A DNA stretch of 64,000 nt from Hyphomonadaceae bacterium (GTDB lineage: Bacteria > Pseudomonadota > Alphaproteobacteria > Caulobacterales > Aquidulcibacteraceae): positions 62,001 through 126,000 of the forward strand of contig WRPI01000005.1 in the NCBI GenBank assembly GCA_009773395.1, in the 5' to 3' direction. The position numbers and the translations under genes are program-made. The notes below the pieces were generated by a model that was not told the origin of the DNA, did not search any database, and saw only the letters and a program-made list of their open reading frames with translations. Below, one piece after another: positions 19,821 through 34,332 of this stretch (position 1 is the first letter of the stretch; every line of letters begins with the position of its first letter).

Positions 19821-20372
19821 CTACCGCATTCCAAATTTTATAATTGCTTCTGTGCAGAACGAAACGACAGCAATTGCAATTCTATTCAGTAATTTTTCGG
19901 CATTAAACTCACTTTCGGATTCAGATAGATGAGTATTTTCGTCGTTGATAATTCTCGAAACACATTCTGCGGCCACGGCATCATTTCCTGTTAGATAAAT
20001 CAATTGGCCTTGGAGGTGTTTGACCACAACATTTTCTACAGCAAAGGTGGTTGCAGCGATCGTTTGTTTGCCAAGTAATCCTGTGATCAAGCCAAGTGCC
20101 AAGCCACCAATTCCACAAAGATGATAACTAATGCACTTACGGATGCCATGTATTTCTAGGTATTTTGCGAAAATCTCCCGATGCTCCTTTTCGTGGGATT
20201 CGTATTCGCGCAATTTCTGAAGCTGAATTCGACCGAAAAACCTTCCAAAAACTATTTGCCCGCGATAGATATTAACCGCGCCATTTTCACCTGCGTGATT
20301 AACTTTGATCATTTTTTCTTGAATTGAAGTGGCTGGCCGAAGCATTGCGGTACTGAATTCAAACATGAACAC
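19821..20372 (-). CDS. coq7: COQ7-type demethoxyubiquinone hydroxylase (diiron)
   Basis: 183 aa. Diiron carboxylate ligands are visible: E29 in VNHAGENGAVNIYRGQ, E-K-E-H at 61-64, E113 in AVENVVVKHLQGQL, and DENTH at 144-148. The domain hydroxylates 2-polyprenyl-3-methyl-6-methoxy-benzoquinol in ubiquinone synthesis, as a peripheral membrane protein; an interfacial helix fits GGLALGLITGLLG. A UbiD fragment at the window end is another ubiquinone enzyme. It is convergent with miaA. Confidence 0.88.
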   Translation of the reverse strand: MFMFEFSTAMLRPATSIQEKMIKVNHAGENGAVNIYRGQIVFGRFFGRIQLQKLREYESHEKEHREIFAKYLEIHGIRKCISYHLCGIGGLALGLITGLLGKQTIAATTFAVENVVVKHLQGQLIYLTGNDAVAAECVSRIINDENTHLSESESEFNAEKLLNRIAIAVVSFCTEAIIKFGMR

Positions 20373-20504: not shown

Positions 20505-20533
20505 TTGACGTGCCGCGCGCGCAATAATATTGC
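20505..20533 (+). promoter_or_regulatory. Candidate ilvB promoter
   Basis: TTGACG (20505-20510), 17 bp, then TATTGC (20528-20533). Transcription would begin about 20540, at or next to the leader peptide ATG. The -10 box is imperfect, but its position relative to the leader peptide is convincing. Confidence 0.5.
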
Positions 20534-20540
20534 TTCTGGG

Positions 20541-20588
20541 ATGAAAATGAAAAACAATGTCGTAGTACTAGTGGGCGCAAGTCTCTGA
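20541..20588 (+). CDS. ilvL: ilv leader peptide (15 aa, attenuation)
   Basis: ATG 20541 encodes MKMKNNVVVLVGASL and stops at 20586-20588; an internal ATG at 20547 gives 13 aa and has GGGA five bases upstream. Five consecutive codons are Val-Val-Val-Leu-Val, exactly the branched-chain residues whose scarcity should stall the ribosome. It is followed by an RNA hairpin and then a terminator before ilvB. The peptide itself needs no function. The arrangement is classic for attenuation control of branched-chain amino acid synthesis. Confidence 0.85.
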   Translation: MKMKNNVVVLVGASL

Positions 20589-20642
20589 AATTTGGTTTCA
20601 GGGATTGCGTAAAAATTGGGGCTTTGAAGCCCCATTTTTTTT
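20583..20642 (+). terminator. ilvB attenuator: upstream hairpin plus terminator
   Basis: First hairpin: CTGAAA, five-base loop, TTTCAG (20585-20601), starting at the leader stop codon. Second: GGGGCTTTGAAGCCCC (20618-20633) followed by ATTTTTTTT, an intrinsic terminator that ends 20 bp before the ilvB ATG. The alternative (antiterminator) pairing is not obvious by eye, but the position of terminator and leader peptide supports attenuation by Val/Leu tRNA charging. Confidence 0.85.
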
Positions 20643-20662
20643 GGAAATTTTGAGGATATAAA

Positions 20663-22441
20663 ATGGCAAAGTCCAAAGACGAAAAAATAGGCCAGCAAAT
20701 GTCGGGCGCGGAAATAATTGTAAATGCATTGCGTGAGCAAGGCGTGGACACTATTTTTGGTTACCCCGGCGGTGCAGTTTTGCCAATTTATGATGCGCTA
20801 TATGGCCAGAATGACATCCACCATGTTCTAGTGCGCCATGAACAGGGCGCAGCACATATGGGCGAGGGCTATGCCCGATCCACAGGCAAATGCGGCGTAG
20901 TTTTGGTGACTTCGGGCCCCGGTGTAACCAATGCCATCACTGGTATTGTGGATGCGCTTTTGGACAGCATTCCCTTGGTAGTTTTGTGCGGCCAAGTGCC
21001 AACCCATTTAATCGGCACCGATGCTTTTCAAGAATGTGACACAACGGGCCTAACGCGCTCGGCGGCCAAGCATAATTATTTGGTGAAGTCAGTTGAGGAA
21101 CTTGAAGGCGTAATTCACGAGGCGTTTCATATTGCAACATCGGGCCGCCCAGGCCCAGTGGTGATTGATATTCCCAAAGACATCCAATTTAAGAGCCATG
21201 TTTATGCAGGCAAAGCCGCCAGTCTGCCATTTGATTACAAACCGCAAATGAAGCCGCACGGACGCGCAATTGAAATGGCAATTGCCTTGCTTGCCAAGGC
21301 CAAAAAGCCAATAATTTATTCGGGCGGCGGGGTTATTAATGCTGGCAATGGCGCTTCCAAGGCGTTGCGCGAATTGGTGAAATTGACCGATTTCCCGATT
21401 ACTTCCACCCTTATGGGGCTTGGGGCATATCCCGCAAGTGGGAAAAATTGGCTCGGAATGTTGGGTATGCATGGCTCCAACGAAGCTAATATGGCAATGC
21501 ATGATTGCGATGTAATGCTTTGTATTGGTGCAAGATTTGATGATAGAGTGACGGGGCGTTTGGACGCTTTTTCGCCCAATTCGAAAAAAATCCATATTGA
21601 TATTGAACCATCAAGCATCAATAAAAACGTGCATGTTGATATTGGTATTGTTTGTGATGCCGGCAATGGCATTGAAGCGCTTATTGAGGCTTGGGACAAA
21701 AACCACGCGAAGCGTCCGAGCCTTGATAATTGGTGGCAGCAAATTGAAGGTTGGCGCGCGCGCAATTCATTTGGCTATAAAAATTCGGACGAAATAATCA
21801 TTCCGCAATATGCGATTGAGCGTCTGTATGAACTTACCAAACACCGGAAACCCTATATCACCACTGAAGTTGGCTTGCACCAAATGTGGGCCGCGCAACA
21901 TTTCCATTTTGATGATCCCAACCACTGGATGACATCGGGCGGGCTTGGCACAATGGGCTATGGCCTACCTGCTGCAATAGGTGTGCAGGCCGCGCACCCA
22001 GGTGAATTGGTGATTGATATTGCCGGCGATGCCAGCGTGCAAATGACGATGCAAGAAATGGCCTGCGCCATTCAATATGAATTGCCAGTGAAAATCTTCA
22101 TCCTCAATAATGAATGGATGGGCATGGTGCGCCAATGGCAACAGCTTTTGCACGGTGAGCGTTATAGCCATTCCTATTCCCACTCATTACCCGATTTCGT
22201 AAAAATGGCAGAAGCCTTCGGTTGCCTCGGTCTGCGCATTGATAAACCGAGCGAATTAGACGCCAAAATCCAACAAATGCTCGATTACAACGGCCCAGTT
22301 TTGGTTGATTGCCGAGTAAGCAAAATCGAAAACTGCTTCCCAATGATACCGTCAGGCGCAGCCCACAACGAAATGCTATTCGGCGATGATGGCAAGGATT
22401 TAGGGACAGCGATTGATGACAAAGGAAAGCAATTGGTTTAG
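20663..22441 (+). CDS. ilvB: Acetolactate synthase, catalytic (large) subunit
   Basis: 592 aa ThDP enzyme; first step of valine/leucine and isoleucine synthesis. Motifs: FGYPGGAVLPIYDAL (with the G-Y-P-G-G start of the Pyr domain), a conserved Glu in ARHEQGAAHMGEGYAR-like text (VRHEQGAAHMAEGYA in others), and the ThDP motif IAGDASVQMT...LNNEWMGMV. The start has GAGGAT upstream. It is controlled by a leader peptide and attenuator. The regulatory subunit ilvN normally follows directly, but here it lies 3.7 kb downstream. Confidence 0.97.
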   Translation: MAKSKDEKIGQQMSGAEIIVNALREQGVDTIFGYPGGAVLPIYDALYGQNDIHHVLVRHEQGAAHMGEGYARSTGKCGVVLVTSGPGVTNAITGIVDALLDSIPLVVLCGQVPTHLIGTDAFQECDTTGLTRSAAKHNYLVKSVEELEGVIHEAFHIATSGRPGPVVIDIPKDIQFKSHVYAGKAASLPFDYKPQMKPHGRAIEMAIALLAKAKKPIIYSGGGVINAGNGASKALRELVKLTDFPITSTLMGLGAYPASGKNWLGMLGMHGSNEANMAMHDCDVMLCIGARFDDRVTGRLDAFSPNSKKIHIDIEPSSINKNVHVDIGIVCDAGNGIEALIEAWDKNHAKRPSLDNWWQQIEGWRARNSFGYKNSDEIIIPQYAIERLYELTKHRKPYITTEVGLHQMWAAQHFHFDDPNHWMTSGGLGTMGYGLPAAIGVQAAHPGELVIDIAGDASVQMTMQEMACAIQYELPVKIFILNNEWMGMVRQWQQLLHGERYSHSYSHSLPDFVKMAEAFGCLGLRIDKPSELDAKIQQMLDYNGPVLVDCRVSKIENCFPMIPSGAAHNEMLFGDDGKDLGTAIDDKGKQLV

Positions 22442-26104: not shown

Positions 26105-26647
26105 ATGCCACAACCCGCTTCCGCCTATTTTATACCAGAAACCAAAGACGCAATCATAAGAACTACGCTTGCGGTTATTGTTGTTAACGAGCCAGGGGTT
26201 TTGGCGCGCGTGGTTGGGCTTTTTTCGGCGCGTGGCTATAATATCGAAAGCCTTACAGTGGCCGAAACCGATCACGAAGCCCATACTTCGCGCATCACCA
26301 TCGTAACATCGGGCACTTATGCGACCTTGGCGCAAATCAAAGCGCAGATTTCGCGCATTGTGCCAGTAAAACGAGTTATCGATTTTTATGGCGATAATGA
26401 AGCCGTGTCGCGTGAACTGGCTTTGGTAAAAGTCGCGGGCCAAGGCGATCATCGGGTCGAGGCTTTGCGCTTGGCAGACGCTTTCAAATGCCGCATAATG
26501 GACGCGACCTTGGATACGTTCACTTTTGAATTGACTGGAAGCTCAAAAAAGCTCGATGATTTTATCAATTTGATGAAACCATTGGGCTTGGTCGAAGTTT
26601 CAAGAACTGGTGTCGCGACAATTCGCCGTGGCAGTGAAAAAGTATAA
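26105..26647 (+). CDS. ilvN: Acetolactate synthase, regulatory (small) subunit
   Basis: 180 aa with an N-terminal ACT domain (AVIVVNEPGVLARVVGLFSARGYNIESL) that binds valine and a C-terminal ALS-SS-C domain. It activates IlvB and confers feedback inhibition. Normally it directly follows ilvB; here three small genes, a His-rich protein, a YkgJ protein and VapBC lie between. The start at ATG 26105 precedes the ACT domain by ~20 residues, as in other alphaproteobacteria. Confidence 0.95.
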   Translation: MPQPASAYFIPETKDAIIRTTLAVIVVNEPGVLARVVGLFSARGYNIESLTVAETDHEAHTSRITIVTSGTYATLAQIKAQISRIVPVKRVIDFYGDNEAVSRELALVKVAGQGDHRVEALRLADAFKCRIMDATLDTFTFELTGSSKKLDDFINLMKPLGLVEVSRTGVATIRRGSEKV

Positions 26648-27385: not shown

Positions 27386-29907
<2,522 letters not shown>

Positions 29908-31915: not shown

Positions 31916-32632
31916 ATGCGCCGCAAATTCGAGAATTTCATAAACTATTTCACAACAATGGAATCTAGTTCACAAAAAGCTGTTTGGATCGCTTTTGTGC
32001 TTTTTACAATTGCTGGCATAATTGCCGCTGCGGGCACGGTATTTCTTGAAGTCGATCAGGGCGCAATTGCCAATTTTTTTCGCGGCTTGCGCGGTTTGTG
32101 GTGGTCGCCAATTGCGGTTACGCTGGTTTTTGTGGTCTTGGCATTTTTGGGCGCGCCGCAGGTAATTTTAATTGCGGCGACAGTAGCAGTTTTTGACACT
32201 TATGAAGGAATAATCCTTTCATGGGTCGCTACCCTGGTTTCGGCAAGCGTTGGATTTGGATTAGGCCGCTTTGGCGGGGCTGGCTTAGTGCAAAAATTAT
32301 TGGGTGGACGCGGCAAAAAAGCACTGCGCTTCATTTCAAATAACGGATTTTTGACTAGTTTATTGGTCCGCCAAGTCCCCACTGGCCCTTTTATTTTGGT
32401 CAATCTGGCCTTGGGCGCGGCGAAAATAAGGGCGTCATGGTTTATAGCCGGAACTGGCCTTGGTATTTTGCCAAAAATACTATTGGTCGCATTTGGATCT
32501 GAGGGAATCGAAGATGCGTTCGACGGCGATGGCTTGGGCGCTTTGGTATTTTTTGTCGCCGCCGCGATTATATGGGCGCTCATCGTGTTTGGCGTCAGGC
32601 CGATGCTGCTAAAGTTGCAAAATAGAGACTAA
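31916..32632 (+). CDS. TVP38/TMEM64-family (DedA-like, SNARE-associated) membrane protein
   Basis: 238 aa. Several membrane segments and the TVP38/VTT pattern: FLGAPQVILIAATVAVFDTYEGIILSWVATLVSASVGFGLGR by segments, and RQVPTGPFILVNLALGAAKI, with a GLGILPK turn. Members are probably lipid-related transporters or scramblases in the inner membrane. Substrate unknown. Confidence 0.85.
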   Translation: MRRKFENFINYFTTMESSSQKAVWIAFVLFTIAGIIAAAGTVFLEVDQGAIANFFRGLRGLWWSPIAVTLVFVVLAFLGAPQVILIAATVAVFDTYEGIILSWVATLVSASVGFGLGRFGGAGLVQKLLGGRGKKALRFISNNGFLTSLLVRQVPTGPFILVNLALGAAKIRASWFIAGTGLGILPKILLVAFGSEGIEDAFDGDGLGALVFFVAAAIIWALIVFGVRPMLLKLQNRD

Positions 32633-32687
32633 ATTCTAAAAAACACGATATTTTGGTAAAAATTACTAATTGTTAGCCAAAAATGGG

Positions 32688-32715
32688 TTGAATTAGAAAA
32701 TTATTGCATTATAGA
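32688..32715 (+). promoter_or_regulatory. leuA promoter
   Basis: TTGAAT (32688-32693), 16 bp, TATAGA (32710-32715), about 78 bp before the GTG of leuA. No attenuator, leader peptide or terminator hairpin is visible between it and leuA, in contrast to ilvB. Confidence 0.55.
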
Positions 32716-32793
32716 CTAATTTTGCAACATTTGCATTGCAGTTCGAGCTATATTACAAATCAATCAAACGACCTATTTGAAAGGGAAATAAAA

Positions 32794-34332
32794 GTGAGCG
32801 ACCATATTCGTATTTTTGACACCACAATGCGCGACGGCGAACAAAGCCCCGGTGCGTCCATGTCACATTTCGAAAAATTGGAACTCGCAAAACTCCTCGA
32901 AGAAATGAAAGTCGATGTTATCGAAGCTGGCTTTCCGATTGCCAGCCAAGGCGATTTTGATGCCGTAAAAGCGATTTCGGAAATTGTATCGCAAAGCATC
33001 GTCTGTGGCCTTTCGCGCGCAGGCGCCAAGGATATTGAACGCTGTGCCGAGGCGGTGAGGGGCGCGGCACGCCCGCGCATTCACACCTTCATTTCAACTT
33101 CGCCTTTGCACATGAAACATAAATTGCAAATGGAACCGGAACAGGTGCTTGAAGCAATCCATGGTTCGGTGACCTTGGCGCGCAATTTGGTGGGCGATGT
33201 TGAATGGTCCGCCGAAGATGCCACCCGCAGCACCCGTGATTTTTTGCGCCGCGCAGTTGAGACGGCCATCAAAGCCGGCGCGACCACCATCAATGTTCCC
33301 GATACAGTTGGTTATGGCGTCCCAGACGAATATGGTGCTATTTTCAAAGACTTAATTGAAAATGTTCCGGGTGCGGATGAAGTTATTTTTTCCGCCCATT
33401 GCCATAATGATTTGGGCTTGGCGGTCGCCAATTCGCTTGCGGCAGTGCAAAATGGCGCGCGGCAAATTGAATGCGCGATCAATGGCCTTGGCGAACGGGC
33501 GGGCAATGCCGCGCTTGAAGAAATCGTGATGGCGCTAAAAGTGCGCGAAAATGCAATGCCATTTAGCACGCAAATTGACGCCACAAGGCTATTCGTGGCT
33601 TCGAAAATGGTCTCACGCATAACCGGTTTTCCCGTGCAGTATAATAAAGCGATTGTCGGTAAAAATGCCTTCGCGCATGAATCGGGTATTCACCAAGACG
33701 GCATGTTGAAAAACGCCGAAACCTACGAAATTATGACGCCTGAATCCGTGGGCCAAGGCGGCACAAATTTGGTGATGGGCAAACATTCGGGCCGCCACGC
33801 GTTCAAAGATAAATTGCGCGCTTTGGGTTACGAATTATCCGACAATGCCTTCATGGATGCTTTCACCCGCTTCAAAGATTTGGCCGACAAAAAGAAGTTC
33901 ATTTTTGATGATGATTTGGTGGCATTGGTCGATGATGCGGCGTCGCATGTTGATGATGCCATAAAAGTCTCGCGCCTTCGCGTTGTGGCCGGCACCGATG
34001 GCCCACAGACTGCGGAAATTGACTTGTTAATTAATGGCGAAAAACGCTGGACCACTATGCGCGGCAATGGCCCCGTGGACGCAGTATTCAACGCCATTCG
34101 CGCCCTAGTGCCGCATGAAGCGGTGTTGGATTTATACCAAGTTCATGCGGTTACTGAAGGCACCGACGCCCAAGCCGAAGTTTCAGTGCGCCTCGCCGAG
34201 GGCGGCTATTACGCCACCGCCCGCGCCGCCGACGCCGACACACTGGTCGCCAGCGCCAAAGCCTACGTAGGCGCCCTCAACCGCCTTATGACTAAGCAAA
34301 AACGGCACGGTGGTGAAGTGCAGGTGGGTTGA
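32794..34332 (+). CDS. leuA: 2-isopropylmalate synthase
   Basis: Start GTG 32794 (VSDHIRIFDTTMRDGEQSPGASM) with AAGGGA seven bases upstream; 512 aa, matching the long bacterial form. TIM-barrel catalytic motifs: FDTTMRDGEQSPG, HCHNDLGLAVANSLAAV (metal-binding HxH), GLGERAGNAALEE, and the C-terminal regulatory domain that binds leucine. First committed step of leucine synthesis. Cytoplasmic. Confidence 0.96.
   Translation: MSDHIRIFDTTMRDGEQSPGASMSHFEKLELAKLLEEMKVDVIEAGFPIASQGDFDAVKAISEIVSQSIVCGLSRAGAKDIERCAEAVRGAARPRIHTFISTSPLHMKHKLQMEPEQVLEAIHGSVTLARNLVGDVEWSAEDATRSTRDFLRRAVETAIKAGATTINVPDTVGYGVPDEYGAIFKDLIENVPGADEVIFSAHCHNDLGLAVANSLAAVQNGARQIECAINGLGERAGNAALEEIVMALKVRENAMPFSTQIDATRLFVASKMVSRITGFPVQYNKAIVGKNAFAHESGIHQDGMLKNAETYEIMTPESVGQGGTNLVMGKHSGRHAFKDKLRALGYELSDNAFMDAFTRFKDLADKKKFIFDDDLVALVDDAASHVDDAIKVSRLRVVAGTDGPQTAEIDLLINGEKRWTTMRGNGPVDAVFNAIRALVPHEAVLDLYQVHAVTEGTDAQAEVSVRLAEGGYYATARAADADTLVASAKAYVGALNRLMTKQKRHGGEVQVG

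Follow-up and report, generated by a model that had tools for sequence, protein, structure and literature searches.

What decides whether a transcript started upstream of ilvB runs on into the gene? In the window, the whole stretch of 64,000 nucleotides that we analyzed, the gene that we take from its sequence and position to be ilvB follows a short frame with a Val-Val-Val-Leu-Val run, a hairpin that encloses the end of this frame, and an intrinsic terminator whose T8 ends 20 nt 5' of the ilvB ATG (Table 1). An earlier reading, made from the sequence without database searches (the sequence-only reading), had claimed a 15-codon leader, a hairpin, and a terminator at this distance from ilvB, and both the sequence and the folds bear this out. 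The leader frame also has a second in-frame ATG at 20547, and the spacing found in relatives favors the one at 20541. We conclude, with a probability of about 0.82, that ilvB is preceded by a ribosome-mediated transcription attenuator with a leaderless Val/Leu leader.

Table 1. Positions of the regulatory features and of ilvB in the window
Feature	Positions	Strand	Basis and remarks
Inferred promoter: TTGACG (20505-20510), 17 nt, TATTGC (20528-20533)	20505-20533	+	Sequence; TTGAC spacing in the genus
Alternative -10 element TAATAT, 14-nt spacing	20525-20530	+	Sequence
Leader peptide frame, MKMKNNVVVLVGASL then stop; 15 codons, ATG at 20541, TGA at 20586-20588	20541-20588	+	Sequence; equivalent frames in L003 to L006; predicted leaderless or with a 5' UTR of 0-4 nt
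Control codons GTC GTA GTA CTA GTG (Val-Val-Val-Leu-Val)	20559-20573	+	Sequence; V/I/L run kept in the genus
Hairpin 1, spanning the leader end and stop codon	20575-20610	+	Folds; genus consensus fold
Candidate antiterminator, 20594-20603 with 20622-20631	20594-20631	+	Our own reading of the sequence; 10 pairs, three of them G-U
Intrinsic terminator: stem-loop 20617-20634 and T8 20635-20642	20617-20642	+	Sequence; kept in 5/5 genus members
GAGGA, likely ilvB ribosome binding site	20652-20656	+	Sequence
ilvB, acetolactate synthase large subunit; ATG at 20663	20663-22441	+	ORF; relatives

The anatomy of the locus is that of an attenuator. A short frame rich in amino acids of the pathway (VVVLV) lies 5' of the biosynthetic gene, an intrinsic terminator separates the two, and the order of V/I/L run, hairpin, terminator, and ilvB is that of the alphaproteobacterial ilvB leaders of the Caulobacter crescentus ilvBN kind. 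Folding of positions 20542-20665 beats 199 of 200 dinucleotide shuffles (z = -3.81). A constitutive terminator that happens to lie next to a chance Val/Leu run would look similar and would sense nothing. On both strands of the window, 1072 ATG-started frames of 8 to 40 codons were found, nine of which contain five consecutive V/I/L codons, the ilvB leader frame being counted twice among the nine through its two in-frame ATGs; the ilvB leader frame is the only one with a G+C-rich stretch and six T in the 100 nt after it. This unique coincidence of run and terminator, together with the persistence of the run in relatives while its codons and residues change (IVVVL, LVVII, and LVVIV), makes the chance explanation very improbable. 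As the sequence-only reading had stated, the leader belongs to ilvB alone: ilvC and leuA have no such V/I/L frame in the 300 nt upstream, and the stretches scanned near them (28700-28900 and 32600-32830) hold no terminator-like site. A riboswitch was set aside, as Rfam gave no match at the gathering score in the window.

A minus-strand ORF (19821-20372) that resembles coq7 sits between a miaA-like frame and the ilvB leader. In some relatives of the same order (L019, L021, and L029), the miaA-like end lies just 5' of the leader. Downstream, about 3.7 kb of other frames (from 22451) separates ilvB from a frame at 26105-26647 that we take to be ilvN-like; the attenuator may thus control ilvB without ilvN.

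Attenuation of this kind has a precedent in the class, as the sequence-only reading had noted. A passage in PMC4117421 describes attenuation of C. crescentus ilvBN by tandem Ile/Val codons and credits it to Tarleton, Malakooti and Ely (1994). This system, in which a leader CDS stands before ilvIH, concerns the same gene and class as the window and, to judge by the best named relatives, probably the same order; its leader, as mentioned there, also combines tandem branched-chain codons (Ile/Val) with a terminator (PMC4117421). By 2005, a mention in PMC1273637 could call the alphaproteobacterial ilvB leader peptide "previously described," citing Vitreschak et al. 2004. Because the C. crescentus ilvBN case and the alphaproteobacterial ilvB leader are published, the leader in the window adds to an already known kind of attenuator.

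In the mechanism that we favor, transcription would start at or within a few nucleotides of the leader ATG, and a ribosome would load on the 5' AUG without a Shine-Dalgarno (SD) site and translate VVVLV. With ample charged Val-tRNA and Leu-tRNA, the leader would be completed and the terminator would form, stopping transcription before ilvB; when these charged tRNAs are scarce, the ribosome would be delayed on the run, with more readthrough into ilvB. The presence of a sensor is well supported by the anatomy and by the published C. crescentus case. The sequences show the parts, their conservation, and the spacing of the promoter. We infer the 5' end of the leader and its translation, and the direction of the response, from shortage to readthrough, is presumed by analogy with C. 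crescentus.

Conservation was followed first within the genus, in five genomes that include the window's own and represent about three sequence types (L003 and L004 are near-duplicates, as are L005 and L006). Loss of the run or of the terminator in relatives had been named beforehand as the sign that would speak against an attenuator; both are retained. All five genomes keep the reading frame of the leader, the hairpin around its stop codon, and the terminator, and the leader codons differ, with runs of VVVLV (window), IVVVL, IVVVL, LVVII, and LVVIV. Run, hairpin 1, and terminator are likewise kept in many Rhizobiales, which upholds the proposal of a leader-peptide attenuator of ilvB. As for compensatory changes in the stems, which the sequence-only reading had named as further support, 3 of the 24 pairs in the genus consensus fold (n = 5) are changed on both sides in at least one sequence; one or two sequences lack several of the other pairs, in part because of the alignment. 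The covariation term is small (-0.32 kcal/mol). Beyond the genus, the stop codon lies inside hairpin 1 in 100 of 100 analyzed ilvB leaders, the window's included, in a set from which L030, L120, and L168 were excluded for doubtful structure and L149 for having no terminator.

How widely is the element distributed? We searched with a filter requiring at least four V/I/L in five codons and a terminator-like signal. Leader-like elements were found 5' of ilvB/ilvI in 104 of 204 loci, i.e., 113 filter matches minus 9 that proved spurious on inspection (L051, L101, L113, L114, L115, L131, L155, L181, and L199); the filter also misses likely true leaders, e.g., L013, L015, and L033, and the set is heavy in Rhizobiales (most of the 80 named loci), so that such fractions are not class frequencies. 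Among the matches listed, the best named relatives are a Maricaulis-labeled MAG, "Candidatus Phycosocius" (Caulobacterales in the NCBI taxonomy), and an Alphaproteobacteria MAG; the remaining named ones are mostly Rhizobiales by name. With L155, L181, and L199 dropped, 60 stretches from 60 genomes across the class, order, and family gave leader-like elements in 5 (L149, L152, L168, L172, and L203) and no credible leader match before ilvB in the other 55. Among 27 loci of the class (L112 to L138), 4 are leader-like (L116, L120, L123, and L132), with L113, L114, L115, and L131 dropped.

Within the same family, none of nine loci of genus g12 (L017, L018, L022, and L140 to L145) has a leader match before ilvB. 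In L017, L018, and L022, the frame 5' of ilvB reads as what we take to be the end of ilvC, as if the attenuator had been lost with the ilvC-ilvB arrangement. The absence in g12 and the 55 of 60 stretches without a credible match indicate that the element either is patchy or escapes the filter. In genus g9 (L023, L025, and L027), leader-like frames before ilvB contain no more than two or three Val/Leu codons but still have a T run after them; these are perhaps decaying leaders.

The sequence-only reading had placed a promoter such that transcription starts at the leader ATG. The position of TTGACG fits, and either of the two candidate -10 elements would put +1 within a few nucleotides of this ATG; a scan with the sigma-70 consensus does not list this promoter, its two matches being on the other strand. 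The argument for the promoter comes from spacing: all five genus members place TTGAC exactly 36 nt upstream of the leader start codon. We extended the comparison to 100 distinct leaders, mostly of Rhizobiales, taking as the start the first ATG that gives at most 22 codons, else GTG, else TTG (L168, with no start by this rule, and three repeats were dropped). TTGAC is found 35 to 38 nt from the start in 72 leaders, at 50 to 62 nt in 18, and elsewhere in 10; in four of these last (L007, L044, L056, and L092), another in-frame ATG has TTGAC at 36 to 38 nt. An SD-like tetramer at -18 to -4 occurs in 0 of the 72 leaders of the first class, 14 of the 18 of the second, and 3 of the remaining 10.

This spacing backs the earlier proposal of a leaderless mRNA, and the ilvB leader of the window is likely translated leaderless. 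The alternative, that the leader has a normal 5' UTR with an SD site and a promoter further upstream, has in its favor the 50- to 62-nt class, to which six leaders of genus g6, from the same family, belong; for the window itself, it appears improbable, given the 36-nt spacing in 5/5 genus members and the lack of an SD-like tetramer in all 72 leaders of the 35- to 38-nt class, the window's included. The simplest reading of these sequences is that most sampled Rhizobiales and the window's genus would translate the leader from a 5' AUG and that genus g6 would use a 5' UTR. Spacing of TTGAC misses some leaderless leaders: Sinorhizobium meliloti trpL is leaderless, yet in the 12 rhizobial trp leaders discussed below no TTGAC comes within 45 nt of the ATG chosen.

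The sequence-only reading regarded a leaderless mRNA as out of the ordinary for a leader that senses stalling. This finds no support: Sinorhizobium meliloti trpL (rnTrpL) is described in passages of PMC7298713 and PMC10117765 as a leaderless attenuator leader, and 72 of 100 ilvB leaders share the leaderless geometry. The trpL likeness, as far as these passages go, is that of a leaderless leader peptide of an attenuated biosynthesis operon in Alphaproteobacteria (PMC7298713, PMC10117765). Leaderless mRNAs are numerous in such bacteria, with 375 in C. crescentus according to a statement in PMC4117421 and 171 in S. meliloti according to one in PMC3616915. No paper on leaderless ilv leaders in Alphaproteobacteria was found by title among the open-access papers listed.

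Escherichia coli ivbL-ilvBN, ilvL-ilvXGMEDA, and leuL-leuA resemble the window's locus in having a leader peptide rich in Val, Leu, and Ile with a terminator after it. In E. coli, leaders are translated from a 5' UTR with an SD site. Work by Canestrari from 2020, cited in PMC13236596, reportedly concerns mycobacterial polycysteine leaderless attenuators; judged by title, these share with the window leaderless short attenuator frames, which also speaks against leaderless attenuators being unusual, and differ in sensing cysteine and in belonging to another phylum.

Does the leader work by the textbook trp/leu scheme, in which a stalled ribosome masks the 5' arm of hairpin 1 and the freed 3' arm pairs with the terminator 5' arm? 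To answer this, we compared two states, a ribosome stalled on the control codons and one at the stop codon, for the extent to which upstream RNA sequesters the terminator 5' arm. The transcript was modeled before inclusion of the terminator 3' arm, with the ribosome edge placed 12 nt beyond the A-site codon's first base (+12), and a switch was called when the mean over stalls exceeded the stop state by at least 0.2; the folding model is thermodynamic, omits pseudoknots and kinetics, and assumes the ribosome edge. The trp controls were leaders from 12 rhizobial genomes (near-duplicates are present in this set, as in the genus set of five). In each of the 12 rhizobial trpE(G) loci (L215 to L226), a trp leader with a terminator was found somewhere in the stretch, the residues after its WWW being AR, AC, or AS.

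At +12, the switch appeared in 6/7 E. coli leaders and 10/12 trp leaders but in 0/49 ilvB leaders: 0/12 from the same rhizobial genomes, 0/5 from the genus, and 0/32 others (one per similarity cluster; L030, L120, L149, L168, and L172 excluded). The ilvB leaders thus differ in this respect from the E. coli and the rhizobial trp leaders; S. meliloti trpL also differs from them in sensing Trp. The reverse, with more sequestration in the stop than in the stall state, was seen in 8/12 rhizobial, 3/5 genus, and 19/32 other ilvB leaders and in 0/19 controls. Moving the edge to +9 gave 1/49 ilvB leaders and 10/12 trp controls, and moving it to +15 gave 0/49 and 9/12. At +18, the trp control falls to 4/12 and one of the five genus leaders passes, so that the contrast between ilvB and trp holds for +9 to +15 only. 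At none of the five stall positions does the window's leader lose the terminator from its minimum-energy fold. An earlier version of the test, scored by the best single stall on the run, gave a sequestration of at least 0.5 in 22/97 ilvB leaders, and in it the E. coli hisL leader did not switch. Folding with alternative pairings, the check suggested by the sequence-only reading, gave no trp-type antiterminator in silico: a terminator-exclusive, stall-dependent antiterminator, the mark of the trp type with its three alternative helices, is absent from the thermodynamic model in 5/5 genus and 49/49 ilvB leaders at +12, and we do not file the ilvB leader under that type.

Sequestration of the terminator 5' arm does occur when the ribosome stands further along. 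Measured by the distance of the ribosome edge from the end of the stop codon, the genus median is 0.02 at -15, 0.39 at -5, and 0.73 to 0.74 at 0 to +10, where the hairpin 1 5' arm is wholly masked. At -5, roughly where the edge falls when the last control codon is the stall site, L005 and L006 reach 0.57 to 0.58. Across 0 to +10, values are 0.77 to 0.87 for L002 and 0.70 to 0.76 for L005 and L006, and they drop from 0.95 to 0.21 in L003 and from 0.42 to 0.27 in L004. Given this rise, a ribosome held at the final control codon, or one with a somewhat longer footprint, could open hairpin 1 far enough. For full sequestration, the ribosome must have reached the last codons or the stop, and the edges of first-codon stalls give the lowest values.

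A pairing of the trp/leu kind can be drawn in the window (the candidate antiterminator in Table 1). The duplex that includes it has an energy of -13.8 kcal/mol, and 2% of shuffles are as good. In L003 and L004, the matching region does not outscore shuffles; in L005 and L006, 10 to 11.5% of shuffles reach its score. Judged by these sequences, the candidate antiterminator is not conserved in the genus. We also compared native with swapped duplexes in 40 leaders (L030, L120, L168, and L172 left out). Native duplexes were on the whole no better (mean z of 0.07 from stop to terminator and -0.14 for the leader part), in a coevolution test that has little power where terminators are near-invariant; for the 15 leaders outside Rhizobiales, mean z values were 0.19 and -0.71 and mean ranks 0.59 and 0.49. 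Weighing the drawable duplex, the late-stall sequestration, the 22/97 leaders, and the genus leader that switches at +18 against the 0/49 result, we regard the textbook scheme as a genuine but doubtful possibility for this locus.

The position of the helix that encloses the stop codon offers part of an explanation. In the 12 rhizobial trp leaders, this helix starts 0 to 7 nt from the first Trp codon; in the ilvB leaders of the same 12 genomes it starts 9 to 26 nt from the first control codon. The offset is 9 to 17 nt in the window's genus and at least 9 nt in 29 of 32 other ilvB leaders, so that a ribosome held on the first control codons would leave hairpin 1 folded. The helix position is not the whole cause of the missing switch, because the offset is 34 nt in E. 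coli leuL and 72 nt in ilvL.

If a delayed ribosome leads to readthrough, then either the model misses a pairing or a kinetic effect, or hairpin 1 is not the protector of the trp scheme. That hairpin 1 has some other role is a speculation to which we give limited credence. Equally tentative, and rather unlikely in our estimation, is the broader idea that alphaproteobacterial ilvB leaders form a second attenuator design, often leaderless and devoid of an antiterminator of the trp type. Delay on the first V/L/I codons would halt the ribosome just short of hairpin 1, leaving it folded, and a ribosome reaching the stop codon would open it; whether transcription terminates or reads through would then depend on hairpin 1, acting by RNA polymerase pausing or by direct contact, or on an unmodeled tertiary pairing.

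Our favored reading, a ribosome-mediated attenuator with a leaderless Val/Leu leader, places an established regulatory device in the window's genus. Among the sampled Rhizobiales, the comparison points to leaderless initiation as the usual state of ilvB leaders. The failure to find an antiterminator in a controlled test indicates that the mechanism of these leaders may differ from the one assumed by enterobacterial analogy.
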